Below the pieces are notes generated by a model, which ran no database searches, was not told where the DNA came from, and worked only from the letters and a program-made list of their open reading frames with translations. From Maledivibacter sp. (GTDB lineage: Bacteria > Bacillota > Clostridia > Peptostreptococcales > Caminicellaceae), in the NCBI GenBank assembly GCA_025210375.1, contig JAOASB010000004.1, forward strand, positions 1 through 64,000: a stretch of DNA of 64,000 nucleotides. Reading direction: 5' to 3'. Positions 7,232-41,300 of the stretch are shown here, one piece after another. A program made the position numbers and the translations under genes. Positions within the stretch are counted from its first letter, which is position 1. Each line of letters starts with the position of its first letter.

Positions 7232-8080
7232 CTATTTATCTGTATAAATTTTTCTATATTTTGTTGGAGTGGTTCCAACCTTTTTTTTGAATATCTGATT
7301 AAAGTACGATTGACTATTGAAACCAACAATTTCAGTGATCTGTTTCATAGAATATTGGGTGTTTTTTAGGAGATTCTTTGATACTGATATCCTTTTTTCA
7401 ATGAGATAATCGATAGGAGAAGAACCGGTATATTTTTTGAACTCATGGACTAGATAAAATTTATTCATATAAGCCACTGAGGCTAAAGAATCTAGGCTCA
7501 GTTCTGAGGCATAATGAACATCAATATATTTCTTTATAAAAGCACAGTCCTTATTAATACTCTTTGTAGAAGCCAATACCAAATTTGATTCAGTTCTTCG
7601 CCTTATATTGAAAATTAAAATTTCCATGATATTTTGACAAATCGATTGATAATGTTTTCCGCAGCCTTGGAGTTCTTTAAGTATTGTGTCTAGATAAAAA
7701 AGAATTTCATCTTTACATTTAGAATAATTGTATATGCTATATGAGGTCGTTGTTCCACAATGATTAGAGCTTCCATTAATAATTAGAGAAATACCATCTA
7801 TCCCCAATACTATGTATTCTAAAGGGTTAGAATCCTTGGATGATTCCGTATGGAGAACGTTTGCATTTACTATAATTAAATCGTCTTCTTTCACAGTAAA
7901 ATCTTTATCTTGTATTTTAAAATGACCACTTCCGTGGACAACATAAAATAATTCAGTAAAAGGATGCATATGCATAGTGCTGTGCCAGTCATCTTCATAT
8001 TTGGCTCTTGATGCATATCTAAGTTTCGCATTAAGTTTACTTAATTCATTACCCTCAGATTCAAATAAATTATTTGACAC
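7232..8080 (-). CDS. AraC-family regulator of the galacto-N-biose operon
   Basis: 282 residues: an N-terminal cupin-like sensor (about 30-95, with HMHPFTELFYVVHG) and a C-terminal pair of AraC helix-turn-helices (about 180-280; GFNSQSYFNQIFKKKVGTTP is the signature region). GTG 8080 has AAGGAGG 9 bases upstream. It diverges from the sugar ABC transporter/phosphorylase operon, so it probably activates that operon when an intracellular sugar binds the cupin. Three exact 11-bp repeats in the shared intergenic region are likely binding sites (separate entry). Confidence 0.88.
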   Translation of the reverse strand: MSNNLFESEGNELSKLNAKLRYASRAKYEDDWHSTMHMHPFTELFYVVHGSGHFKIQDKDFTVKEDDLIIVNANVLHTESSKDSNPLEYIVLGIDGISLIINGSSNHCGTTTSYSIYNYSKCKDEILFYLDTILKELQGCGKHYQSICQNIMEILIFNIRRRTESNLVLASTKSINKDCAFIKKYIDVHYASELSLDSLASVAYMNKFYLVHEFKKYTGSSPIDYLIEKRISVSKNLLKNTQYSMKQITEIVGFNSQSYFNQIFKKKVGTTPTKYRKIYTDK

Positions 8081-8118
8081 AACTATGATCCTCCTTAAAG
8101 GTTATTAATATAATTTTA

Positions 8119-8172
8119 TTATATTGCTTTAAAATTTGAAAAGCAATATAAATAAAAAAACAAGCAATATAA
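8119..8172 (+). promoter_or_regulatory. AraC-type operator: three exact 11-bp half-sites
   Basis: AAGCAATATAA occurs at 8141-8151 and 8162-8172 as direct repeats exactly 21 bp apart (two helical turns), and in inverted form at 8119-8129. The inner site abuts the -35 region of the downstream promoter. Two-turn-spaced direct repeats are the usual footprint of AraC-family dimers. Confidence 0.7.
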
Positions 8173-8175
8173 TTA

Positions 8176-8204
8176 TAGAAAAAAATATACATAATGGTTA
8201 TAAT
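8176..8204 (+). promoter_or_regulatory. Activator-dependent promoter for sugar ABC operon
   Basis: TATAAT at 8199-8204 is a perfect -10. At 17 bp upstream there is only TAGAAA (8176-8181). The poor -35, with an operator half-site ending 4 bp upstream, suggests dependence on the divergent AraC protein. Confidence 0.5.
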
Positions 8205-23212: not shown

Positions 23213-23433
23213 ACTTAAGAATGATCTAAACTATGAAAGAACAAATTATTATTTCAAATCATAAAATCAATAATTTTGAAATTGGCATAAAATTTGCTTG
23301 ATTAGTATCTGTTCCTGATTCGTTTTAGTTGTAATTATTGAAGTTGATAAAATAAATATTGTACAAAAAATATAAATTGTCAAACATTAATCTAATTAGT
23401 TTAAGTAGTAAGGGACAGAAGGAGGGAAATAGT

Positions 23434-25188
23434 TTGGATATTAAACAATTAAAGTCAGTAGCTGAGGAAATTGTGGTGGCAACTAGTAAAATTCTCAATG
23501 ATGTTACGGTAGCAATTGTTGATCAAAATGGAAATTATATGGCCATTGATGAATTTTATATAATTAGAAAAGGTACTGAAGAGTGGAAACCCTATATTGA
23601 TGAAATTATAAAGAAAAGAAAAGTGACTATCATTGAAAATCCTGGACTTAATCCACTTTGTAAAGGATGTGAAAATGAAGGAAATTGTCCACAAACCTTA
23701 GAAATTTCAGTTCCATTTAATTTTGACAATAGATTTTTTGGATATATCAGTGTTATAACATTTTCTAATGAGATGAAGGACTATTACATTAAACGCATAG
23801 ATCAGACAGTTGAGTATTTGAACAGTATGGTTAAGCTCATGGTTAGTGCTGCAAAGGAACAAGCGACCAGAATTCATGCCGAAAGGATGTTTTCCGAACG
23901 AGAGGCTATCATTAATTCTATGAATTACGGTGTTGTTGATTGTGATATTGATGGACGAATTAAGTGTGCTAATCATACTTTTTGCAATTTTATTGGCGCT
24001 GATAGACCTATTGAAAACCAGCTTATTACTGAAATTTTAACCTCTACTGCTATTGAAGAAGTTCTAAATAACAAGGGTGAACTAGAGGGGCGTGAGGCAC
24101 AAGTATTTATTAACAATGAAATGCATAGAATGGTTGTAAGTGCTACGGTGATAAAAAGTGAATCAAATGAGGATATTGGTTTCGTATTTAGCCTTCATAA
24201 AGCTGCATATATTAGGAGTTTAGTCTTTGGGAGTAAAGAAGAATGCTCTGAGAATGCCTTAAGCTCTATTATTGGGAAAAGTGCAGCTATGATTGAACTC
24301 AGGAAGAGAATAGAAAGCATCGCTAACAGTTGTTCGACTGTGATGATTAATGGGGAGACTGGAACTGGAAAAGAATTGGTTGCCCGAGCTATACACAGTC
24401 TAAGTTCAAGAAGGGATAAACCTATTGTAACCATTAATTGTGCCGCCATCCCGGATAACTTGTTAGAAAGTGAACTTTTCGGATATGAGGAGGGTGCATT
24501 TACAGGAGGGCGTAAGGGTGGAAAAGCAGGTATTATTGAAGTTGCTGATGGAGGAACTTTATTTTTAGATGAGATTGGCGATATGCCCTTGCACCTTCAA
24601 GCTAAACTGCTTCGGGTATTACAAGAAAAAGAAATCTTAAGAATTGGTGGATATGTACCGACTCCAATCGATATACGAGTGATATCAGCAACCCATCAAG
24701 ATCTGGATGAACTCATAAAACGGCAGCTGTTTAGGATGGATCTATATTATCGTTTAAATATCATACCTATTGAAATTAGTCCACTACGAGAACATATTTC
24801 GGATATAGATGATTTAATCGACTATTTTATCATGAAATATAATCACAAGCTTAATAAACAGATTATAGCGTGTTCAAGGGACTATATTGAAGCTATGAAA
24901 CAATACACATGGCCAGGCAATGTGCGAGAACTTGAGAATGCTATTGAGTATTCAATAAATATTCAAACGGGCAATATTTTAACTACTGATAGTCTTCTAC
25001 AAAAAATTTCTGATTATGATTTGGAAGAAAGAAGTACAATGAGTTTAAAACAAAGGACCTTAGAATATGAAAGAAAAGTTATACAAAACGTTGTTAAACA
25101 GTATAAAAATGAGTCTAATGGTATAGAAAAAGCTGCACATTTATTAGGCATTAGTAGGGCATCATTATATAGGAAACTAAAAGGCTAG
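23434..25188 (+). CDS. Sigma-54-dependent activator of the downstream GRE operon
   Basis: 584 residues. A GAF/PocR-like sensor (about 1-140) carries a cysteine cluster CKGCENEGNC (C-x2-C-x5-C); a PAS domain follows (about 160-260); then the AAA+ domain with Walker A GETGTGKE (about 306) and a sigma-54 contact loop reading GAFTGG in place of the usual GAFTGA; a Fis-type helix-turn-helix ends the protein. TTG 23434 is chosen because GGAGG at 23421-23425 lies 8 bases upstream. A near-perfect sigma-54 promoter lies 430 bases downstream ahead of the GRE operon, so that operon is the likely target. Confidence 0.9.
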   Translation: MDIKQLKSVAEEIVVATSKILNDVTVAIVDQNGNYMAIDEFYIIRKGTEEWKPYIDEIIKKRKVTIIENPGLNPLCKGCENEGNCPQTLEISVPFNFDNRFFGYISVITFSNEMKDYYIKRIDQTVEYLNSMVKLMVSAAKEQATRIHAERMFSEREAIINSMNYGVVDCDIDGRIKCANHTFCNFIGADRPIENQLITEILTSTAIEEVLNNKGELEGREAQVFINNEMHRMVVSATVIKSESNEDIGFVFSLHKAAYIRSLVFGSKEECSENALSSIIGKSAAMIELRKRIESIANSCSTVMINGETGTGKELVARAIHSLSSRRDKPIVTINCAAIPDNLLESELFGYEEGAFTGGRKGGKAGIIEVADGGTLFLDEIGDMPLHLQAKLLRVLQEKEILRIGGYVPTPIDIRVISATHQDLDELIKRQLFRMDLYYRLNIIPIEISPLREHISDIDDLIDYFIMKYNHKLNKQIIACSRDYIEAMKQYTWPGNVRELENAIEYSINIQTGNILTTDSLLQKISDYDLEERSTMSLKQRTLEYERKVIQNVVKQYKNESNGIEKAAHLLGISRASLYRKLKG

Positions 25189-25333: not shown

Positions 25334-25388
25334 AAAATCGAGCAGGAGGGAAATTTATTTAAATTTCCCTCCTGCTCGATTTTGTTAA
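25334..25388 (+). terminator. Strong terminator after sigma-54 activator
   Basis: An almost perfect inverted repeat: AAAATCGAGCAGGAGGGAAA (25334-25353) pairs with its complement ending at 25384. It isolates the activator gene from the operon it controls. A weaker hairpin (ATCTCA/TGAGAT with T8) precedes it. Confidence 0.9.
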
Positions 25389-25555: not shown

Positions 25556-25616
25556 AAATAATCATAAGGCCATAATATCTTTTGAAAATATAATGCATTC
25601 AACAGAATTATAAAGG

Positions 25617-25632
25617 TGGCACGATATTTGCT
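25617..25632 (+). promoter_or_regulatory. Sigma-54 (-24/-12) promoter of the GRE-ort operon
   Basis: TGGCAC (25617-25622), five bases, TTGCT (25628-25632): a match to the consensus TGGCAC-N5-TTGCW. It also shows that the GRE cannot start at the in-frame GTG at 25616. Confidence 0.9.
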
Positions 25633-25669
25633 ATATAACCATGAAGTGATAAAGAGGAGGGAAAAATTC

Positions 25670-28090
25670 ATGACACAAATGATTAAATATTGTAATAAAG
25701 ATTTTGATAAATCGATTACAGATCGTATTGCAAAAATTAGGGAAGAAGTAATTTCTGCTAAACCGACTTTGTGTAGTGAGAGAGCATTACTTGTTACTGA
25801 ACTATATAAAGAAACAGAAGATGTACCTAATGTAACAAGAAGAGCAATTGCACTCAAAAAAATTCTTGATAACATGACACAAAATATCTGGGATGGAGAG
25901 TTGATTGTAGGAAGTCATGGAAGTAACGGAAGGAGATCAGCACCCGTTTTTCCAGAGTTTGCTACAGAATGGCTAAAGGAAGAGCTAGATGAAATGTTAG
26001 AAACAAGGGAACAGGATACCTTCGTAGTTCCTCAAAATGTAAAGGATGATATTAAAAGTATCTTTCCATATTGGAATAATAAAACCATATACAACAGATA
26101 TCGTGCCATGCTTCCTGAGGAAACTAAGCAGGCTAGAGATTCATATATGTTTACCCGTGATCTTTTTGAACGAAATGGTTATGGTCATACAGCTTATGAT
26201 GTTGAAAAAATACTAAAGGTTGGAATCATAGGTATTAAGAATGAAGTTGAAGAAAAGCTTAGTGCTGTTGATTTAACCACTAGTGAAGGTATTGAAAAGA
26301 AACTCTTTTATGAAGGACTTATCATTTGTCTCGATGCAGTTGTTAATTATGCTAAGCGTTATGGACAAAAGGCCTTAGCCCTTGCCGTTAAAGAGAAGGA
26401 CACCATAAGAAAAAAAGAACTTGAAAAAATAGCAGATGTTTGTAATTGGGTTCCTGAGAATCCAGCAAGGGACATATGGGAAGCTATTCAAGTTGTAGCT
26501 TTTATGCAAATTATCATTCAAACAGAAACAAGCGGTGATTCAGTTTCCCCAGGAAGATTAGATCAATATCTATATCCGTATTATAAAAGTGATATAAAAG
26601 AAGGACGCTATACCATAGATGAAATTCAAGAGCTTCTAGATTCTCTATGGATTAAGTTCAATGAAATTGTTAAAGCCCAGGATAGTGAATCTATTCATAT
26701 TCACCCAGGTTTTCCTATGACTCCAAACCTTACAATTGGAGGGCAAACACCTGACGGAGACGATGCTACAAATGAGCTAAGCTACTTAATGCTTAATAGC
26801 CAAAAACATATAAGATTAACAAATCCTCAGTTTACAGTTCGTTTTCATAAGAATACTCCAGAGGATTTCAAAATGAGGGTTGCAGAAATTGTAAAGCTTG
26901 GGACTGGGATGCCAGCTATGTTTGGTGATGAAGGATGTATGGGGGCTATGCAAAGATCTTTTCCGGACATGCCTATAGAGCGTATTAGAGACTATAGTAT
27001 TGTTGGTTGTGTAGAGCTTGCTCCAAAGGGATTCCAAGCTAGAGTTAATGGTGGATTTTTAAATGTGGCTCGTGTTGTAGATCTTGCTTTAAATGATGGT
27101 GTAGATAGGTTGACAGGTAAGCAAGTTGGACCTGAAACCGGTAAGCCCGAGAGCTTTAAAGCCTTTGACGATGTGCTTGAGGCTGTTCGTACACAAATGG
27201 AGTATTTTGTGAAACACCAAGTGATAAATGCTGCAGTAGTGGATATGGTACAGAGAGAATATATGCCGCATCTATTCCTTTCAAGCTTAATAGAAGGTTG
27301 TATAGATAATGGTAAAGACATGACTAGGGGTGGGTCCCTTTGGGGTGCAACACCTATATTACATGTTGGATTAGCAACAGCTGCCAACTCTTTAGTAGCT
27401 GTTAAGAAAACTATCTTTGAAGATAACACCCTTAAGATGGAGGAATTAATTGAAGTATTAAATAGTAATTTCTCTGGAGAAAGAGGAGAAGAAGTGTACG
27501 AAGTGCTACAGAGTCTTCCTAAATATGGAAATGATAATGATTATGCAGATGATGTCATGAAAACTATGACAAATATGTTCTTTGATGAAATTGAGAAACA
27601 TAAGGATATTGATGGTAGAGCTTATACTTCTATGATCCTTACCCTTGGGGCAACTGTTCCTCATGGATGGAAAACAGGAGCCACTGCGGATGGAAGAAAA
27701 TCAGGGACACCGGTTTCGGATTCCATGTCACCATCCAATCTAGGAGAGAGTGAAGGCCCTACGGCTGTACTTCTATCGGCTGGAAAGATAGATCAAAGTC
27801 GTGTTCTTGAGGGTAATGTATTAAATCTTAAATTCAATAGGAATGCATTATCAGAAGAACAGTCCCTAAAGAAATTAATGGATTTAGTTAGTACCTATTT
27901 CAACACACTAAAAGGACAAGAGGTACAAGTAAATGTTGTAGATGGAAAAGTCTTAAGAGATGCACAAAACAACCCACAAAACTACAGTGACCTTATTATT
28001 CGTATCGCAGGCTATAGCGCACGTTTTGTGGAGCTAGCAAAGGAATTACAGGATGACATTATAGCAAGAGAAGAACATGAATTTTTATAA
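25670..28090 (+). CDS. hplG: Glycyl radical enzyme, probable 4-hydroxyproline C-N lyase (HplG-type)
   Basis: 806 residues, the size of 1,2-eliminating GREs (CutC, HypD, glycerol dehydratase). The active-site loop GCVE has C447 and E449; the radical loop RIAGYSARF has G781. These residues place it among eliminases rather than pyruvate formate-lyase, which has two adjacent cysteines. The substrate is inferred from context: ortA and ortB follow, and HplG is known to open 4-hydroxy-D-proline to 2-amino-4-ketopentanoate, the OrtAB substrate. Another amino acid giving the same product (for example 4-hydroxyornithine) is possible. ATG 25670 has GAGGAGGG upstream and lies after the sigma-54 promoter. 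Confidence 0.75.
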   Translation: MTQMIKYCNKDFDKSITDRIAKIREEVISAKPTLCSERALLVTELYKETEDVPNVTRRAIALKKILDNMTQNIWDGELIVGSHGSNGRRSAPVFPEFATEWLKEELDEMLETREQDTFVVPQNVKDDIKSIFPYWNNKTIYNRYRAMLPEETKQARDSYMFTRDLFERNGYGHTAYDVEKILKVGIIGIKNEVEEKLSAVDLTTSEGIEKKLFYEGLIICLDAVVNYAKRYGQKALALAVKEKDTIRKKELEKIADVCNWVPENPARDIWEAIQVVAFMQIIIQTETSGDSVSPGRLDQYLYPYYKSDIKEGRYTIDEIQELLDSLWIKFNEIVKAQDSESIHIHPGFPMTPNLTIGGQTPDGDDATNELSYLMLNSQKHIRLTNPQFTVRFHKNTPEDFKMRVAEIVKLGTGMPAMFGDEGCMGAMQRSFPDMPIERIRDYSIVGCVELAPKGFQARVNGGFLNVARVVDLALNDGVDRLTGKQVGPETGKPESFKAFDDVLEAVRTQMEYFVKHQVINAAVVDMVQREYMPHLFLSSLIEGCIDNGKDMTRGGSLWGATPILHVGLATAANSLVAVKKTIFEDNTLKMEELIEVLNSNFSGERGEEVYEVLQSLPKYGNDNDYADDVMKTMTNMFFDEIEKHKDIDGRAYTSMILTLGATVPHGWKTGATADGRKSGTPVSDSMSPSNLGESEGPTAVLLSAGKIDQSRVLEGNVLNLKFNRNALSEEQSLKKLMDLVSTYFNTLKGQEVQVNVVDGKVLRDAQNNPQNYSDLIIRIAGYSARFVELAKELQDDIIAREEHEFL

Positions 28091-28188: not shown

Positions 28189-28956
28189 ATGCAAGAGTCG
28201 AATAAGGGATTAATTTATAATATACAACGTTATAGCCTCCATGATGGTCCAGGTATTCGTACAATCGTATTTCTTAAAGGATGTCCTCTTCGTTGTAAAT
28301 GGTGTTCTAATCCAGAATCCCAGAAGATGGATATAGAAATGATGGGTTCCCAGGAGGTAGGACGTATAGCAACTGTAGATGAGATTTTTGATGTGGTCTC
28401 TAGAGATAAAGTGTTTTATGATGAATCCAATGGTGGAATGACATTATCTGGAGGCGAACCACTTATGCAGCCGGATTTTGCAAATGCACTTGTATTGGAG
28501 GCAAAGAAAAGAAATATTCATGTTGCAATTGAAACTACAGGATTTCAACAGTGGGAATCCCTTTGGAAGGTAGTTGAAAAAATAGACCTTGTTCTATTTG
28601 ACATAAAGGTTATGGATTCTAAACGTCATGAAAAGTTTGTTGGAGTACCTAATGAGCTTATTTTGGAAAATGTTAAGAAACTAGCCGGAATGAACAAGGA
28701 TATAATAGTTCGAATACCCATAATACCAGGTTGTAATGATAGCTGGGACAATCTAGCTAAGACAAGTGAATTCTGTAAAAATATTGGAGTTAAAAATATC
28801 GAGCTTCTACCCTATCATAGGTTAGGAGAAGCTAAATATGATAAATTAGGTAGAACCTATGAGCTGAAGGGTTTAAGCACTCCATCAAAGGAAGAACTTA
28901 GGGAAATTGCTTCTGAACTTACAGAGGAGTTTAAAGTAAAGTTGTCTGTTATATAG
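28189..28956 (+). CDS. Radical-SAM activating enzyme for the upstream GRE
   Basis: 255 residues. CPLRCKWC (about 31-38) holds the CxxxCxxC [4Fe-4S] ligands that bind S-adenosylmethionine; the opening YNIQRYSLHDGPGIRTIVFL is typical of GRE activases. It abstracts hydrogen from G781 of the GRE. It lacks the extra ferredoxin-like cysteine clusters that activases of other eliminase GREs usually insert after the CxxxCxxC, so it resembles the short PflA form. The ribosome site AGGAGAAG precedes ATG 28189; the gap to the GRE is 98 bases. Confidence 0.88.
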   Translation: MQESNKGLIYNIQRYSLHDGPGIRTIVFLKGCPLRCKWCSNPESQKMDIEMMGSQEVGRIATVDEIFDVVSRDKVFYDESNGGMTLSGGEPLMQPDFANALVLEAKKRNIHVAIETTGFQQWESLWKVVEKIDLVLFDIKVMDSKRHEKFVGVPNELILENVKKLAGMNKDIIVRIPIIPGCNDSWDNLAKTSEFCKNIGVKNIELLPYHRLGEAKYDKLGRTYELKGLSTPSKEELREIASELTEEFKVKLSVI

Positions 28957-29016: not shown

Positions 29017-29334
29017 ATGAAGGCAAGAAAAGGAGATTGGGTAGAAATCGAAAATTTGATTCTCCAGCCCGAAGAGAGATCAACCAATTTACCAGAGGAT
29101 ACTAGAAAAGTTCCATTAAATATGTGGGTAAGGGGTTTTTTGCAAACCGATGAAGCCGAAGTTGGAGAAGAAGTTGAAATTATAACATTAACAGAAAGAA
29201 AAATTAGTGGGAAATTGGTTGAAATGGCACCAAGACATAATTATGACTATGGAGATACGATCATAGAATTAATTCAAATAGGTGAAGAACTTAAAAGAGA
29301 ACTTGCAAAAGCTTTAGAAAGAGGTGTTAAGTAA
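29017..29334 (+). CDS. ortA: 2-amino-4-ketopentanoate thiolase, alpha subunit
   Basis: 105 residues matching OrtA of clostridial ornithine fermentation (KARKGDWVEIENLILQPEER at the start, PRHNYDYGDTIIELIQIGEE near the end). With OrtB it cleaves 2-amino-4-ketopentanoate with CoA to acetyl-CoA and alanine. The ribosome site AAAGGAG precedes ATG 29017. Its TAA overlaps the ortB ATG (TAATG), so the subunits are made together. The usual upstream ornithine genes (oraS, oraE, ord) are absent. Confidence 0.88.
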   Translation: MKARKGDWVEIENLILQPEERSTNLPEDTRKVPLNMWVRGFLQTDEAEVGEEVEIITLTERKISGKLVEMAPRHNYDYGDTIIELIQIGEELKRELAKALERGVK

Positions 29335-30746
29335 TGAAGGATATGTCTTATGAAGGAGTTATGAGTAGAAACAATGAAATAATGAAGGCAGCAGTAGGTA
29401 TTGACTATGCTAAGTTTGAACAAAGTAAAATAGCCTTCGATTACGAAGGGTTAATGAAAGAAGTTCCTTACTCTTTTAAAGAAATTAGAGAGATTCAAAG
29501 AGAAACCAAGGTTGGAGATACACCACTTTTTGAGCTTAAGAATTTAACTACTCTTGTAAGAAGCGTTAGTGAAAAGGGTAAGGGAGCTAGGATTTTTGTT
29601 AAGGATGAGGCAGCAAATTGTTCAGGTTCATATAAGGATAGAAGAGCTTCACTTTCGGTTTATCATGCCCAAAAACATGGATATAAAGGAGCTATTTCTG
29701 CTACTTCTGGGAACTATGGAGCAGCAGTAGCATCCCAGGCATCACAAAGAGGAATTAAATCCATCGTTGTCCAAGAAGTATTTGATTCAAGAAAAGTAGG
29801 ACAACCAGAGATATTAGAAAAAGGAAGAAAGTGTGAAGCCTTTAACTCAGAGGTTGTACAGCTTACAACTGGACCCGAATTATTCTATGTATTTCTAAGA
29901 TTATTAGAGGAAACTGGTTATTTCAATTCATCACTTTATTCACCATATAGTATTGCAGGTGTTGAGACTCTAGGATATGAGATCGCTGAAGAACTTATGG
30001 AGAAAGAAGGTAAGTTTCCAGATGCAGTAGTAGTAACTAATGCAGGTGGAGGAAATCTTACAGGAACAGCTAGGGGATTAATCAAAGCAGGAGCTGTAGA
30101 TACAAAAATAATTGGAGCATCCGTAAATCTTAAAGGACTTCACATGGCTTCTGATACAGATTTCAATAAGAAATCCTTTACAACAGGGCATACAGGTTTT
30201 GGTATCCCTTTTGCTACATTGCCTGATAGATCCGATGTTCCAAGAAATGCCGCTAGAACCTTAAGATACATGGATAGATATGTTTCTGTAAATCAAGGGG
30301 AAGTATTTTATGTAACACAAGCATTAGCTGTTCTTGAGGGCCTTGAAAGAGGACCAGCAGGAAATACATCTTTAGCAGCTGCTTTAGCTATTGCTAAAGA
30401 GATGGATGAGGATCAAATAATTGTTGTTCAAGAAACTGAGTATACAGGTGCTGGTAAACATCCAACTGCACAATTAACATTTGCTAAGGAAAATGGAATT
30501 GAAGTAAGAAGAGGAAATCCAAATGAAGAGATACCAGGAAAGAGTATCGTAATTCCTAATAGCTTTGATCAAATTGAAGCAAGAGAAATTAACTTAGATA
30601 AGATGAAAAGATCCTTCGTTAAGAATGCAGTGGTAAAGGCAGGGGTTACAATAGATGAATTAACCAAGGAAGATATAGAATTTTTAGCTGAAGATTGCAA
30701 GATATCAGTTAGTATGGTAAGTGATATCTTAAAGGAAATGAAATAG
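29334..30746 (+). CDS. ortB: 2-amino-4-ketopentanoate thiolase, PLP-binding beta subunit
   Basis: 470 residues, fold type II PLP enzyme related to threonine synthase. The PLP lysine is in GSYKDRRAS (K101); the phosphate-binding loop is near TNAGGGNLTGTARG. This subunit carries the chemistry that makes alanine from carbons 1-3 of the substrate while the acetyl group goes to CoA. One-base overlap with ortA. A leaky hairpin follows before the next gene. Confidence 0.88.
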   Translation: MKDMSYEGVMSRNNEIMKAAVGIDYAKFEQSKIAFDYEGLMKEVPYSFKEIREIQRETKVGDTPLFELKNLTTLVRSVSEKGKGARIFVKDEAANCSGSYKDRRASLSVYHAQKHGYKGAISATSGNYGAAVASQASQRGIKSIVVQEVFDSRKVGQPEILEKGRKCEAFNSEVVQLTTGPELFYVFLRLLEETGYFNSSLYSPYSIAGVETLGYEIAEELMEKEGKFPDAVVVTNAGGGNLTGTARGLIKAGAVDTKIIGASVNLKGLHMASDTDFNKKSFTTGHTGFGIPFATLPDRSDVPRNAARTLRYMDRYVSVNQGEVFYVTQALAVLEGLERGPAGNTSLAAALAIAKEMDEDQIIVVQETEYTGAGKHPTAQLTFAKENGIEVRRGNPNEEIPGKSIVIPNSFDQIEAREINLDKMKRSFVKNAVVKAGVTIDELTKEDIEFLAEDCKISVSMVSDILKEMK

Positions 30747-30812: not shown

Positions 30813-30857
30813 GTAGAATTTATAGATTAATATGAGCATGAGTAGGAGGACAAAGTA

Positions 30858-32213
30858 GTGTGTAAAGCAGTCACAGAAAAAACAAACAATATAATTGATA
30901 GAGAAAAAAAATATTTATCATATACAACTAGAGTGCCCTACTATCCATTGGTAGTTGATGAAGCAAAGGGTTGTGTCATAAAGGACATAGAAGGAAATGA
31001 ATTTATAGATTTTCTGTCAAGTGCCGCGGTTATCAATACTGGTCATAATCATCCAAGAATTGTAAAAGCAATTAAGAATCAGATTGATAAATTTATTCAT
31101 TATACACCGGCTTATATGTATCATAAGCCCCATACAGAATTAGCAGAAAAGCTAGTTAATATTTCACCAGGTAATTTTGAAAAAAGAGTTGCCTTTGGGT
31201 TATCTGGGTCTTCCTCGGTGGATGGTGCAATTAAAGCAGCTTGTAGCTTTACTAAAAGGCGTAAAATAGTTTCTTTTCTAAGATCCTATCATGGCACAAC
31301 CGTTGGAGCTATAAGTGTATCGGGATATAGTACGGATATGAAAAAGAATCTAGGACCTTTAATGTCAGATGTTCATTTTATACCTTATCCAGATTCCTAC
31401 CGAGGTAATTATAGTAATGGAGATGTGGAGTGCATTTCCGGATATATTGATTATTTTAAAGAATTGCTAGCAACAGTGGTTCCCCCTGAGGAGATTGCTG
31501 CTGTTATATATGAGCCGATTCAAGGAGATGCGGGGGTAGTTATACCACCAGTAGGATACTATAAAGAATTAGATAAAATATGTAAGCAGCACGGAATATT
31601 ACTTATTGCAGACGAAGTTCAGACAGGGTTTGGTAGGACTGGAAGGATGTTTGCATCGGAATATTTTGATATAGAACCAGATATTTTGGTTTTTGGAAAA
31701 GCCATGGCTTCGGGAATGCCTCTTAGTGGATTGGTAGCTAGAAAAGAGATATTTGAAAATTGGGGTACACCAGCCCACTTCTTTAATACTGCCGGTAATC
31801 CTATTTCATGTGCCGCAGCTATTGAAACAATCAATGTCATCAAAGAAGAAGGATTAGTTGAAAATTCAAATGACCAAGGAAATTATATACAGGACAGATT
31901 TAAAGTCTTAATGGATAAATTTGAGTGTATTGGTGATGTCAGAGGAAAAGGATTGCTAATTGGTGTAGATATAGTAAAGGATAGAGCTACAAAGGAAAGA
32001 GATATTGAGAAGACGGCTAAAATTTGTTGGAGATGTTGGGAAAAAGGATTGATTCTAGCCTTCTTTAGTGGTTCTGTTCTAAGAATTGCTCCACCTTTAA
32101 CCTTGAGTAGAAAAGAAGCAGAAGCAGCTATGGATATCATTGAAGCTTCAATAGCTGATGTAGAAGCAGGCAAGGTTTCAGATGAAGTATTGAATGAAAT
32201 TAAAGGCTGGTAG
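30858..32213 (+). CDS. Class III PLP enzyme, isoleucine 2-epimerase-like
   Basis: 451 residues, fold type I class III aminotransferase family; PLP lysine K281 in LVFGKAMASGMPLS. Several stretches (SSAAVINTGHNHPRIVKAIK, FIHYTPAYMYHKP, VLRIAPPL and the GW end) resemble lactobacillar isoleucine 2-epimerase more than ordinary 4-aminobutyrate or acetylornithine transaminases. In this operon an epimerase makes sense: it could racemise the D-alanine expected from OrtAB, or act on 2-amino-4-ketopentanoate. Acting on hydroxyproline itself is chemically harder because it is a secondary amine. A transaminase role remains possible. GTG 30858 follows AGGAGGAC. Confidence 0.7.
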   Translation: MCKAVTEKTNNIIDREKKYLSYTTRVPYYPLVVDEAKGCVIKDIEGNEFIDFLSSAAVINTGHNHPRIVKAIKNQIDKFIHYTPAYMYHKPHTELAEKLVNISPGNFEKRVAFGLSGSSSVDGAIKAACSFTKRRKIVSFLRSYHGTTVGAISVSGYSTDMKKNLGPLMSDVHFIPYPDSYRGNYSNGDVECISGYIDYFKELLATVVPPEEIAAVIYEPIQGDAGVVIPPVGYYKELDKICKQHGILLIADEVQTGFGRTGRMFASEYFDIEPDILVFGKAMASGMPLSGLVARKEIFENWGTPAHFFNTAGNPISCAAAIETINVIKEEGLVENSNDQGNYIQDRFKVLMDKFECIGDVRGKGLLIGVDIVKDRATKERDIEKTAKICWRCWEKGLILAFFSGSVLRIAPPLTLSRKEAEAAMDIIEASIADVEAGKVSDEVLNEIKGW

Positions 32214-32415
32214 TATTTTAGTCTTATTGTAACTTGAAAAAATATTAATAAAATATATAATTGTGATAAAATTAGCTGAATTGAAAGATTTTAAATTTAA
32301 AATTATTAGTAATGTATAGCAAATATCTATATTTACATAGCTTTCATTTTAAATTTTATTGCTAAAATTATGTCTTTCAATTATAAGCATATATATCTTG
32401 AAAGGAGATACTAAT

Positions 32416-33768
32416 ATGAATGAACAAAATGGACTTAAAAAAGAACTGAGTTTTTTCACGGTTCTTATGCTAGTAATTGGAATTGTAATAGGGTCTGGAG
32501 TATTTTATAAGCCCCATGCATTATATACTGCTACTAACGGGGCACCTGGGCTTGGTATATTAGCATGGATAGTTGGAGGGATTTTAGCCCTATTTGGTGC
32601 ATTAACAGCTGCAGAATTATCTGCTGCCATTCCTAAGACTGGTGGTATGATTCCATGGATCAGAGAAGGATTTGGGGATGTTCCTGCTTATTTACTTGGT
32701 TGGAGCCAGACCGTAGTTACGTGGCCTTCATTTATTGCCGCTTTAGGTGTTATTTTTGGGAAAACAGCTATTATATTGCTAGGGGTCAGTGAAAGCTGGA
32801 GCTTACCTATAGCTATTTGTGCCATAGTATTTCTAATTTCTATGAACTGTATTTCTACTAAATTAGGTGGACAAATTGGTTCAGTATCTACTGTAATAAA
32901 GTTAATCCCATTAATTTTTATTATCATTATAGGGTTGGTTAAAGGGCCTTCTGTTGGTAATGGAGCGGCTAATCTTTTACCATTCACAGTAGCAGATGGG
33001 GATACAAGTATATTTGCAGCTCTTTGTGCAGCTACTTTAGCTACTTTATATGCATACCAAGGATGGATAGATGCTGGAGCCCTTGCTGGTGAAATGAAAA
33101 ATCCGTCTAGGGATTTACCATTGGCTTTGACTTTAGGACTTAGTATCATTATGACAATTTATATTGCTATAAACATTGCTTATTTATTTGTACTTCCTGC
33201 TTCTCATTTTGTACAATCAGAAACTCCTGCAATGGATGTTGCTAAGGTTCTATTTGGAGAAACAGGTGGAACGTTAATTAATGTAGCTATATTGATTTCC
33301 GTGTTTGGAGCGCTTAATGCAAACATTATGGCAGGTATACGTGCGCCATATACCCTTGCTATTAAAAATCAACTTCCTTTTTCTAACTGGTTGAAGAAAG
33401 TTAATGAAAAAACCCACACTCCAATAAATTGTGGTATTTATATGGCAGTTGTAGCTAGTATCTACGCGTCAACTGGTGGATTTGATTTCCTAACTAATAT
33501 TACTGTTGTTACAACTTGGATATTCTATATTGTAGTATTTTTAGCTGTAATTAAGCTTAGAATAACTCAGCCAGAATTAAATCGTCCATATAGGGTTCCT
33601 CTTTATCCAATTATTCCTATTATAGCTATTGTTGGTGGAGCAGCAGTTGTATTTATGGCCTTAAAAAGTGACTTTTCCAATAATGTAATGGGTATAGTTA
33701 TTACGTTATTAGGACTTCCAGTTTATTATGTAATTAGAAATAAGTTTGTAGAAGAAGAAGCTCAGTAA
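32416..33768 (+). CDS. APC-family amino acid permease
   Basis: 450 residues with about twelve membrane segments; the first helix has the APC signature VIGIVIGSGVFYKP. Probably imports the amino acid used by the operon (hydroxyproline, if the pathway call is right) or exchanges substrate for alanine. ATG 32416 follows AAAGGAGAT; the longer in-frame start lacks a ribosome site. The 200-base gap upstream holds no promoter I can support. Confidence 0.85.
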   Translation: MNEQNGLKKELSFFTVLMLVIGIVIGSGVFYKPHALYTATNGAPGLGILAWIVGGILALFGALTAAELSAAIPKTGGMIPWIREGFGDVPAYLLGWSQTVVTWPSFIAALGVIFGKTAIILLGVSESWSLPIAICAIVFLISMNCISTKLGGQIGSVSTVIKLIPLIFIIIIGLVKGPSVGNGAANLLPFTVADGDTSIFAALCAATLATLYAYQGWIDAGALAGEMKNPSRDLPLALTLGLSIIMTIYIAINIAYLFVLPASHFVQSETPAMDVAKVLFGETGGTLINVAILISVFGALNANIMAGIRAPYTLAIKNQLPFSNWLKKVNEKTHTPINCGIYMAVVASIYASTGGFDFLTNITVVTTWIFYIVVFLAVIKLRITQPELNRPYRVPLYPIIPIIAIVGGAAVVFMALKSDFSNNVMGIVITLLGLPVYYVIRNKFVEEEAQ

Positions 33769-37674: not shown

Positions 37675-37895
37675 TAATCAAATTATATATGAATCCTTAT
37701 TATGAACATATATTTTAATAAGAGTATGTCCTAACTGGCAATGGTTTATAATTAATGTAATAGAAAATACTCCCTTTAAAAAGAAATATAACAATATATA
37801 TGTAAAAGGAAGGAGCAATTGATATAATAAATTAAGGAAGGAAAAATATAAAACATAGGAACTTAAAAGAAAATTACTTGCAAGCAGGTGATCAA

Positions 37896-39650
37896 ATGAA
37901 AAGGACTAAAATAATTGAATATGTGGATTCTCTACTTACAAAAAATAACAATACTATAAGATATGATGGGGAATTTCAAATGATAAGGGATTGTTTTGAT
38001 CTTTATATAATAAATTCACATTCCTTAAAGGGTATTTTACTTTTATTAGACCACAATAATAGGGTAATAAATGTCAATGAAGGTAATGAAAAAAATGATT
38101 TTATTGGGAGAGATTTTAAGAGTCCCTTTAAAGAAGAAATAAAAGTGGATAAAATAATAGGATTTAATCGAGGAAAGCTTGATGTTTATTATCTCAAAAC
38201 CCACTTAACTATACATAGAAAACTGACATATAGTATATGCTATATAACAGATTATGGTACCGATGGTCATGGGGAAGGATTATTGGAATACATTGCTCTT
38301 AGGATTAGTGAGTCCATGAAAATTCTTAGAAAATATAATGAACACAGTATTTTTTTAAATAAATATTTAGATTCCATCGATGAAGGGATATCTACATGTG
38401 ATATAGATGGACGAATTACATATGTAAATAAAGCTTGTTGTGAAATCCTAGGTATAGAAAAAACTGAGGTGTTTAATGGGAAAAGAAAAATATCACCTGA
38501 ATATAGCCCAATATTGACAAGAATATTGAAGGATAAAAAGAGTATTATAGATGTTGAATACTTCCCCAAAAGAAATAATAAGACTGTCCATCTAATAAAT
38601 TCTTCATATCCTGTACTTGATAATGAAAAGGATGAAGTGGTAGGAACCATAGATATATTTAGAGGAATTAAAAGAACAACAAAGCTGGCAAGTACACTTG
38701 TAGGACAAAATGTTCCCTATATGTTCGAAAATATAATAGGTGAAAGCAGTATTTTAAAAGAGAAAATTGGACTAGCTAAAAGCTTTGCTTTAAGTGATGC
38801 TAATGTATATATACAGGGAGAAAGTGGGACTGGAAAGGAACTATTTGCTCAGTCTATTCATAATTTCAGTAAAAGGAAAAATGAGCCATTTATAGCTATA
38901 AATTGTGCGAATTTTCCACTGGAGCTTGTGGATAGTGAATTGTTTGGCTACGAAGAAGGTGCCTTCACAGGGGCCAAGAAGGGCGGTAAAATAGGAAAAT
39001 TTGAACTTGCCAATGGGGGGACCCTATTCCTTGATGAAATTGGTGAAATGCAGCTTCATATTCAAGCAAAGCTACTGAGGGTCTTAGAGACAAGAGCTTT
39101 ATTTAGAATCGGTGGGAATAAACCTATTAAAATAGATGTAAAAATAATTGCTGCTACAAATAGAAATCTATATGATATGGTAAAAAAAGGGGAGTTTAGA
39201 GAAGACCTATATTATAGATTAAAGGTTCTTTTCCTGGAGATTCCTCCACTGAGAGAAAGAGAAAAGGATGTACAGATTCTGTGGGATTACTTTATAAAAA
39301 AGATTGGCAGGGATATGGATAAAGATATTAGAGGCATAGATGCAGGCGGCAAGAGGCTACTTTGTCAATATGATTGGCCAGGAAATATACGGGAGCTTGA
39401 AAATATAATATCAAGGGCCTTATTTATAAGTGATAAAAACGTAATTACAAGGGAAGATCTATTTAAAGCAGGAATAAGCCTAGGAGATATATCTGCAACA
39501 ACAAAAAATAATTTAAAGGAAATTAATAAGGAAATATTAATAAAAACTTTAAAGCAAACCCAAGGGAATAAAAAGAAGACTGCGGAGTTGTTAGGTATAT
39601 CAAGACCAACGGTATATAGAATGATCAAAAAATACAATGTAAAAACATGA
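37896..39650 (+). CDS. PAS sigma-54-dependent activator of tryptophanase
   Basis: 584 residues. An unrecognised N-terminal region (1-145) is followed by a PAS domain (about 155-255; DEGISTCDIDGRITYVNKA), an AAA+ domain with Walker A GESGTGKE (about 308) and intact GAFTGA (about 354), and a C-terminal Fis-type helix-turn-helix (NKKKTAELLGISRPTVYRM). ATG 37896 follows AGGTGAT. The next gene, tryptophanase, has a clear sigma-54 promoter, so this is the likely activator. The N-terminal/PAS region may sense an aromatic amino acid; this is inference. Confidence 0.9.
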   Translation: MKRTKIIEYVDSLLTKNNNTIRYDGEFQMIRDCFDLYIINSHSLKGILLLLDHNNRVINVNEGNEKNDFIGRDFKSPFKEEIKVDKIIGFNRGKLDVYYLKTHLTIHRKLTYSICYITDYGTDGHGEGLLEYIALRISESMKILRKYNEHSIFLNKYLDSIDEGISTCDIDGRITYVNKACCEILGIEKTEVFNGKRKISPEYSPILTRILKDKKSIIDVEYFPKRNNKTVHLINSSYPVLDNEKDEVVGTIDIFRGIKRTTKLASTLVGQNVPYMFENIIGESSILKEKIGLAKSFALSDANVYIQGESGTGKELFAQSIHNFSKRKNEPFIAINCANFPLELVDSELFGYEEGAFTGAKKGGKIGKFELANGGTLFLDEIGEMQLHIQAKLLRVLETRALFRIGGNKPIKIDVKIIAATNRNLYDMVKKGEFREDLYYRLKVLFLEIPPLREREKDVQILWDYFIKKIGRDMDKDIRGIDAGGKRLLCQYDWPGNIRELENIISRALFISDKNVITREDLFKAGISLGDISATTKNNLKEINKEILIKTLKQTQGNKKKTAELLGISRPTVYRMIKKYNVKT

Positions 39651-39917: not shown

Positions 39918-41300
39918 ATGAAGATTAGAAAAGCGGAGCCATTCAAAATTAAAATGGTAGAGCCAATTAGGCTTATTCCTAGGGAAGAAAGGGAAAAAAG
40001 ATTAATAGAAGCGGGATATAATCCATTTGCACTAAGAGCAGAGGATGTATATATTGATTTATTAACTGATAGTGGTACTGGTGCTATGAGTGATAGACAA
40101 TGGTCGGCCCTTATGATGGGGGATGAATCCTATGCTGGAAGTAGAAGCTTTTATAAACTAGAGTCTGTGGTTAAAGACATAACTGGTTATAATTACGTTA
40201 TACCAACCCACCAGGGTAGAGGTGCAGAACAAGTAGTATTCCCTAATCTAATAAAGAAATCTGGGGATTATGTACTAAACAATATGCATTTTGATACTAC
40301 AAAGGCACATGTAGAGATTGCAGGGGGTAGAGCAATTAATTTAATTGATGACAAGGCATTTAATACTACTGAATACGATGATTTTAAAGGAGATTATGAC
40401 CTAGAAAAGCTAGAGAATTTTATAAAAGAACATAGGTTAGAAGATATTTCTTGTATAGTAGTAACTGTAACCTGTAATTCTTCTGGTGGTCAGCCTGTTT
40501 CAATGGGAAATATAAAGGGTGTAAAGGAAATAGCTGATAAATATGGTTTGAAAGTATTTTTGGATGCGGCAAGATATGCTGAAAATGCTTACTTTATTAA
40601 GATGAGAGAAGAAGGATATAAGGATAAGTCTATAGGAGAAATATCTAAGGAAATGTTTAGCTATGCAGACGGAATGATGATGAGTGCTAAAAAAGATGGC
40701 TTAGTAAATATGGGTGGTCTTGTAGCCATAAAGGATGACGAAGAGTTATATACAGCTTGTCGTTCTACAACAGTACCCCTTGAAGGATTTCCAACCTATG
40801 GAGGACTTTCAGGAAGAGATATGGAAGCTCTGGCAGTAGGTTTGGAAGAGGCTTTAGAATTTGAATATTTAGAGTATAGAATGGATCAGGTAAAGTACCT
40901 AGGTGATAGATTAATGGAAGCGGGAGTACCGATACAGTATCCAACGGGAGGTCATGCAGTATTCGTAGATTGTAAAAAAATATGCCCCCATATCCCGTAT
41001 CATCAATTCCCAGCTCAAGCGGTTTGTAATGCAGTATACCTAGAAGCAGGAGTAAGACCCGTTGAAATTGGTTCATTCCTATTGGGAAGAGATCCAGATA
41101 CAGGTGAAAATATAGAATCCCCACTTGAGCTTATGAGACTCACAATACCAAGAAGAGTATATACAAACAGACATATGGATGTAGTCGCCGATGCTGTAAT
41201 AGAAGTATTTAAAAATGCAGATAAACTAGTTGGATTTGAATTTGAATACGAACCAGAGGTTTTAAGACACTTTACTGCTAAATTAAGACCGGTGAAATAA
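39918..41300 (+). CDS. tnaA: Tryptophanase
   Basis: 460 residues, beta-eliminating lyase family (tryptophan to indole, pyruvate and ammonia). The PLP lysine is K259 in [13 protein letters not shown]. Tyrosine phenol-lyase is close, but two discriminating places follow tryptophanase: [16 protein letters not shown] (isoleucine where tyrosine phenol-lyase has its specificity arginine) and VLRHFTAKL (histidine where the other enzyme has phenylalanine). GGGGAGG precedes ATG 39918. Controlled by sigma-54, unlike the attenuation system of E. coli tna. Confidence 0.88.

Follow-up and report, generated by a model that had tools for sequence, protein, structure and literature searches.

The two-subunit thiolase OrtAB splits 2-amino-4-oxopentanoate (AKP) in a CoA-dependent reaction whose products are acetyl-CoA and alanine in its D form, and OrtAB clusters of the ornithine type should also release D-alanine. 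OrtAB has also been placed on a hydroxyproline route: Duan et al. in 2022 reportedly described HplG, a trans-4-hydroxy-D-proline C–N lyase working with OrtAB, with AKP as the expected intermediate. In the open-access literature we found nothing on HplG beyond a single citation (of Duan et al. 2022 in PMC11528403). A separate group of enzymes relevant here are the PLP-dependent fold-type-I racemases, which use a pair of catalytic residues: the K291A and D234A mutants of the alanine/serine racemase (ASR) are inactive, and D222A and D222N of isoleucine 2-epimerase (IleE) are almost so (PMC6047364). The ASR gene of Thermococcales adjoins a putative alanine transporter, and the broad-substrate relative BAR is induced by D-amino acids (PMC6047364).

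The window, by which we mean the whole stretch of 64,000 nucleotides that was analysed, contains an operon in which genes for a glycyl radical enzyme (GRE), its activase, OrtA, OrtB and a putative racemase follow each other in this order on one strand. The features used below are the following.

23359–25188, + strand: sigma-54-dependent regulator, PrdR-like but below the PrdR cut-off (profile match)
25616–28090, + strand: glycyl radical enzyme, eliminase type (TIGR01774, 736 bits)
28189–28956, + strand: radical-SAM GRE activase (TIGR02494, 304 bits, cut-off 174)
29017–29334, + strand: OrtA, thiolase subunit (NF040739, 127 bits, cut-off 70)
29334–30746, + strand: OrtB, 2-amino-4-oxopentanoate thiolase subunit (NF040741, 830 bits, cut-off 550)
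30844–30849, + strand: AGGAGG ribosome-binding site, 8 nt 5' of the racemase GTG (from the sequence)
30858–32213, + strand: putative PLP-dependent fold-type-I racemase/epimerase (ORF, profiles, PDB search, trees, structure model)
31527–31529, + strand: codon of Asp224 (in EPIQGD), second catalytic base by alignment, equivalent to IleE D222 and ASR D234
31698–31700, + strand: codon of Lys281, PLP Schiff-base lysine by alignment, equivalent to IleE K280 and ASR K291
32359–33768, + strand: APC-family amino acid permease (profile match)

OrtAB, recognized in the operon by the sequence-only reading, is thus present directly upstream of the gene with both subunits above their family cut-offs. From the GRE to the permease that follows the racemase, a pattern scan detected no terminator on the + strand. 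The permease is preceded by TTGAAA-16-TATAAT at 32234–32261 and may have this promoter of its own. Between the regulator and the GRE, a perfect 20 bp hairpin followed by a T-rich stretch (25335–25382) looks like a terminator. Matches to sigma-54 promoters are not above chance (17 found, 28 expected), and no family was matched in an Rfam search. Further along, a second PrdR-like sigma-54 regulator (37878–39650) is followed by a gene of the tryptophanase/tyrosine phenol-lyase family (39918–41300).

The open reading frame at 30858–32213 starts with GTG and encodes 451 amino acids without interruption. The protein matches 69 NCBIfam models and is a class III PLP protein, in agreement with its first description as class III aminotransferase-like. 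It would be named an aminotransferase on annotation, as had been anticipated, because its best match is PRK08360, a model titled 'aspartate aminotransferase family protein', for which it scores 631.7 bits and so exceeds the cut-off of 608. For the GABA transaminase model TIGR00700 it reaches 351 bits where 507 are required, and the ArgD and ornithine aminotransferase (OAT) models lie well under theirs. The leucine/methionine and alanine/serine racemase models score 456 and 439 bits, both below their own cut-offs. A canonical fold-type-III alanine racemase (Alr, TIGR00492) was ruled out, the protein being of the class III, fold-type-I kind; the genome has separate Alr genes at other places.

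The resemblance to isoleucine 2-epimerase that the sequence-only reading had noticed in several motifs goes far beyond chance. In a PDB sequence search the highest scores among solved structures go to BAR (434 bits), IleE (419 bits) and ASR (417 bits), with GabT at 268 bits; the α-amino-ε-caprolactam (ACL) and amino acid amide racemases score 297 (6gio) and 247 bits (2zuk). Maximum-likelihood trees were built from the window protein, relatives found in public genomes, Escherichia coli GabT and ArgD and five PDB chains, the larger tree also taking in the paralogues from the window genome; the ACL racemases lie outside these trees. In the larger tree (61 rows) BAR, ASR and IleE share a group of 44 rows with the window protein (support 97/96), and in the 29-row tree a branch with support 100/99 separates the racemase-type sequences from the rest. 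Forcing the window clade to group with the GABA transaminases is rejected by the AU test (p = 0.00115), as is forcing it to group with the ornithine aminotransferases (p = 2.8e-6). A constraint joining the window clade to all transaminases is not rejected (p = 0.22); its only effect is to place the clade basal to the other racemases, so that the order of branches within the racemases is provisional.

The catalytic residues agree with this placement. At the position where the sequences read ...GD or ...GE, the rows of the alignment that are in the right reading frame have Asp on the racemase side and Glu on the side of the GABA and ornithine transaminases: GabT (E211 in E. coli), the ornithine aminotransferase 7vno, 2eo5 and 11 relatives all have Glu, and the window protein has Asp224. 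More distant paralogues from the window genome have other residues here. An AlphaFold model of the window protein (pLDDT 91.5) aligns best with IleE (Z = 57.3), followed by ASR (55.8), BAR (55.6) and, slightly lower, GabT (53.8), a ranking of a predicted structure that supports the racemase reading but is not decisive. From the trees, the AU tests, the Asp/Lys pair and the model we infer racemase activity, as the sequence-only reading had proposed, and the enzyme is very probably a racemase of some primary α-amino acid. Lys281 would hold PLP as a Schiff base, and Lys281 and Asp224 would handle the α-proton of the external aldimine from opposite faces. The outcome would be a two-base 1,1-proton transfer with no net transfer of the amino group.

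The window protein and five relatives with 64–77% identity form a single clade (100/100 in the 61-row tree). The racemase gene adjoins OrtAB in the window, in L110 (a Sedimentibacter MAG), in L111, in genomes G153 (L037) and G128 (L038) and, at 57% identity, in G130 (L039), and among relatives with 57–77% identity OrtAB is adjacent wherever the locus is long enough for its neighbours to be seen. The contigs of L112 and L119 end or break too early to show this neighbourhood; in L119 (1393–2499) the racemase frame turns in mid-gene into peptidase-like sequence, probably a misassembly of the MAG. In L113, which follows at 55% identity, the 12.8 kb contig carries no OrtAB. Gene order varies: OrtA–OrtB–racemase in the window, L110 and G130, racemase–symporter–OrtA–OrtB in L111 and G153, and racemase–OrtA–OrtB in G128. 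The racemase-linked OrtB proteins are polyphyletic (AU p of 1.4e-6 against a single clade; a minimum of five changes), so that the linkage arose repeatedly. Two sets of OrtAB loci were searched for a racemase gene of this type within about 9 kb (less at contig ends), and none was found: 33 clusters of the ornithine type, which contain OraE and for the most part an Orr-like racemase, and seven more loci in which OraE is missing.

L110 has lost the GRE but still encodes an intact OrtA, OrtB and racemase; upstream of OrtA, a frame-broken relic of the activase (8013–8200; 47 amino acids at 72% identity) remains. An aminotransferase, an HpaI aldolase and an FAH hydrolase occupy the former place of the GRE. 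In G128 OraE has no match, and the racemase–OrtAB unit does not include a GRE. The racemase gene therefore tracks OrtAB and not the GRE, being kept with OrtAB in both cases where the GRE is missing. An AGCS amino acid:cation symporter adjoins the racemase gene in G153 and L110, and similar ORFs occur in L111 and in L112, where the ORF beside the racemase is probably such a symporter. Other OrtAB loci were seen in passing. In L227 (8062–11027; G657) OrtA and OrtB are directly followed by an alanine dehydrogenase gene (551 bits, cut-off 392), a further link between OrtAB and alanine disposal. L091, L094, L105 and L241 carry OrtAB with no ornithine module nearby; a two-component system lies close to it in L091, L094 and L241 and a transporter-like gene in L091, L094 and L105.

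What feeds the operon depends on the GRE, which has Cys465-Val-Glu467, Gly799, Asp308 and Arg476. Its bit scores are 621 for glycerol dehydratase, 506 for HypD and 370 for HplG (7vua), the last near the bottom of its matches and never among the top five of a PDB sequence search. The GRE is not HypD: it scores 621 bits against a cut-off of 1100 for the HypD model and retains only H160, D278, C434 and E436 (HypD numbering), and a true HypD (1424 bits) is encoded elsewhere in the genome, as is an ornithine cluster with its own OrtAB. The 4-hydroxy-D-proline that the sequence-only reading took as a conditional input is thus not established. Asp308 aligns with Asp278 of HypD, a residue that there makes contact with the amine of the substrate (PMC7077986), and Arg476 is an arginine not present in HypD or glycerol dehydratase. 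The predicted structure of the GRE is poor (pLDDT 66, active-site loops below 50) and was left out of the analysis. Two GREs with 64% identity to that of the window, L279:3841–6270 (G918) and L280:12960–15386 (G936), have Asn in place of Asp308; their operons contain a 2-hydroxyacid dehydrogenase and an isopropylmalate-synthase-like gene, with TRAP transporter genes near, and no OrtAB or racemase. This fits a putative role for Asp308 in recognizing the substrate amine in the OrtAB-linked GREs. G936 has a second, divergent GRE in tandem. A GRE beside the ornithine cluster of G055 (L103) turned out to be 4-hydroxyphenylacetate decarboxylase-like.

The context of G130 (L258:13594–19901 and L039:1–10593) may point to another kind of input. 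Here a GntP permease, an IlvD/EDD-type dehydratase of the dihydroxyacid or sugar-acid kind, an FAH hydrolase, a class I aminotransferase, an HpaI aldolase, the GRE, its activase, OrtA, OrtB and the racemase are encoded on one strand, a gene content suggesting a linear dihydroxy amino acid as input at least as much as hydroxyproline. The run is possibly a sugar-acid route to AKP with alanine as the amino carrier. A catalytic alanine cycle can be drawn from it, in which a 2-keto-3-deoxy sugar acid would be aminated with L-alanine, the dihydroxy amino acid so formed would be dehydrated by the GRE to AKP, OrtAB would give acetyl-CoA and D-alanine, and the racemase would close the cycle by returning L-alanine. 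A pentonate would in this way yield pyruvate and acetyl-CoA with no redox steps, and the operon of the window would be a variant supplied with an amino acid by import. We regard this cycle as unlikely.

For the window itself, the scheme that we prefer has OrtAB converting AKP and CoA to acetyl-CoA and D-alanine, upon which the racemase would act to give L-alanine, to be transaminated, oxidized or exported. We infer alanine as the substrate and this direction of flux with moderate confidence. The AGCS symporters beside the gene and the precedent of ASR argue for alanine, and the symporters together with the repeated linkage to OrtAB support the role at the OrtAB/alanine step proposed in the sequence-only reading. 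The 33 ornithine-type clusters count against it, since they should release D-alanine and none carries the gene, as does the canonical alanine racemase present in all six genomes checked. Profile scores give alanine no preference over leucine or methionine.

A true class III aminotransferase, for instance of the alanine or GABA type, could instead remove the amino group of the OrtAB product. The fold, the general sequence family, the name of PRK08360 and the Z score of GabT, nearly as high as those of the racemases, are what such an enzyme would show; yet the rejected tree placements, an Asp224 where the examined GABA and ornithine transaminases have Glu, and GABA transaminase, ArgD and OAT models far under their cut-offs make it quite unlikely. 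Membership of the racemase clade is to be read with the caveat that PH1501 has only slight racemase activity (PMC6047364). A tentative alternative, going beyond the sequence-only reading, retains the two-base PLP mechanism, again with a primary amine, and moves it upstream, so that the enzyme would epimerize AKP, or its linear amino acid precursor, from the L form to the D form accepted by OrtAB. It would then replace the upstream ornithine racemase of the ornithine clusters, which would account for a gene linked to OrtAB lacking the ornithine module and missing from ornithine clusters that make D-alanine and mostly have an Orr-like racemase. AKP is also close to leucine and methionine in size, whose racemase model scores slightly above the alanine/serine one, and G153 and G953, both with the GRE operon, have no racemase of the PF05544 family to set the configuration earlier. 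The symporters and the ASR precedent favour alanine over AKP, and AKP as a substrate of this racemase family is unreported in the open-access literature searched. With Alr in all six genomes, the alanine and AKP readings both need a reason for a dedicated enzyme.

Direct epimerization of a hydroxyproline isomer, the PLP reaction on a cyclic secondary amine that the sequence-only reading had raised as an unusual option, would fill a gap on the hydroxyproline route. That route would have no known epimerase here because PF05544 is absent from G153 and G953 and its only member in the window genome (L055:9037–11208; G000:C29) has the Cys/Thr motifs MCGHG and DRSPTGTG, so that no two-Cys hydroxyproline epimerase is found in this 97% complete genome. 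The member adjoins a gene of the ornithine-cyclodeaminase family, and the pair looks like a trans-3-hydroxyproline dehydratase and reductase, under the model cut-offs. Against hydroxyproline as the racemase substrate are the retention of the gene in L110 and G128, where the GRE is missing, the inactivity of the Pyrococcus relatives on proline (PMC6047364), a neutral aldimine that these enzymes use and that a secondary amine cannot form, and a GRE that is neither HypD nor, by its score, close to HplG. We consider it highly improbable. What probability remains falls to other amino acids as substrates of the racemase.

The racemase reading would give an enzyme of fold type I a defined catabolic job, where the authors of the PH0782 study call the role of their enzyme unclear. 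It would also be tied to a GRE subfamily feeding OrtAB, and a likely widespread misannotation of racemases as aminotransferases would be corrected. With this operon one can test which amino acid the GRE uses and by which enzyme the configuration at OrtAB is determined. Racemases of this type are known, but their OrtAB-linked use is apparently undescribed: no paper in the open-access literature, with most subscription journals outside the search, places such a racemase with OrtAB.

Compared with the known racemases, the window enzyme is closest in sequence among solved structures to BAR (P. horikoshii PH0138, 9wrf), with 47% identity on the model alignment, a common Asp/Lys pair and a common clade, although BAR is archaeal. 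IleE (Lactobacillus buchneri, 4ysn and 5wya) is closest by structure with 43% identity, its D222 and K280 corresponding to D224 and K281, but it sits on another branch among the racemases, has branched-chain amino acids as substrates and lies in another gene context. ASR (P. horikoshii PH0782, 9wqz) shares clade and catalytic pair and is not the nearest branch; its gene lies beside a putative alanine transporter, and the racemase genes of L110, L111 and G153 likewise lie by a transporter. We know of no OrtAB link for BAR or for ASR. With the ornithine pathway (orr, oraSE, ord, ortAB) the window operon has OrtA and OrtB in common, whereas OraSE, Ord and Orr give way to the GRE and its activase, and the racemase of the window is absent from all 33 ornithine clusters. 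The HplG pathway resembles the window in bringing GRE, activase and OrtAB together; it differs in its GRE, that of the window being by bit score nearer to glycerol dehydratase than to HplG, and in the hydroxyproline epimerase, of which no known form was found in the window genome.
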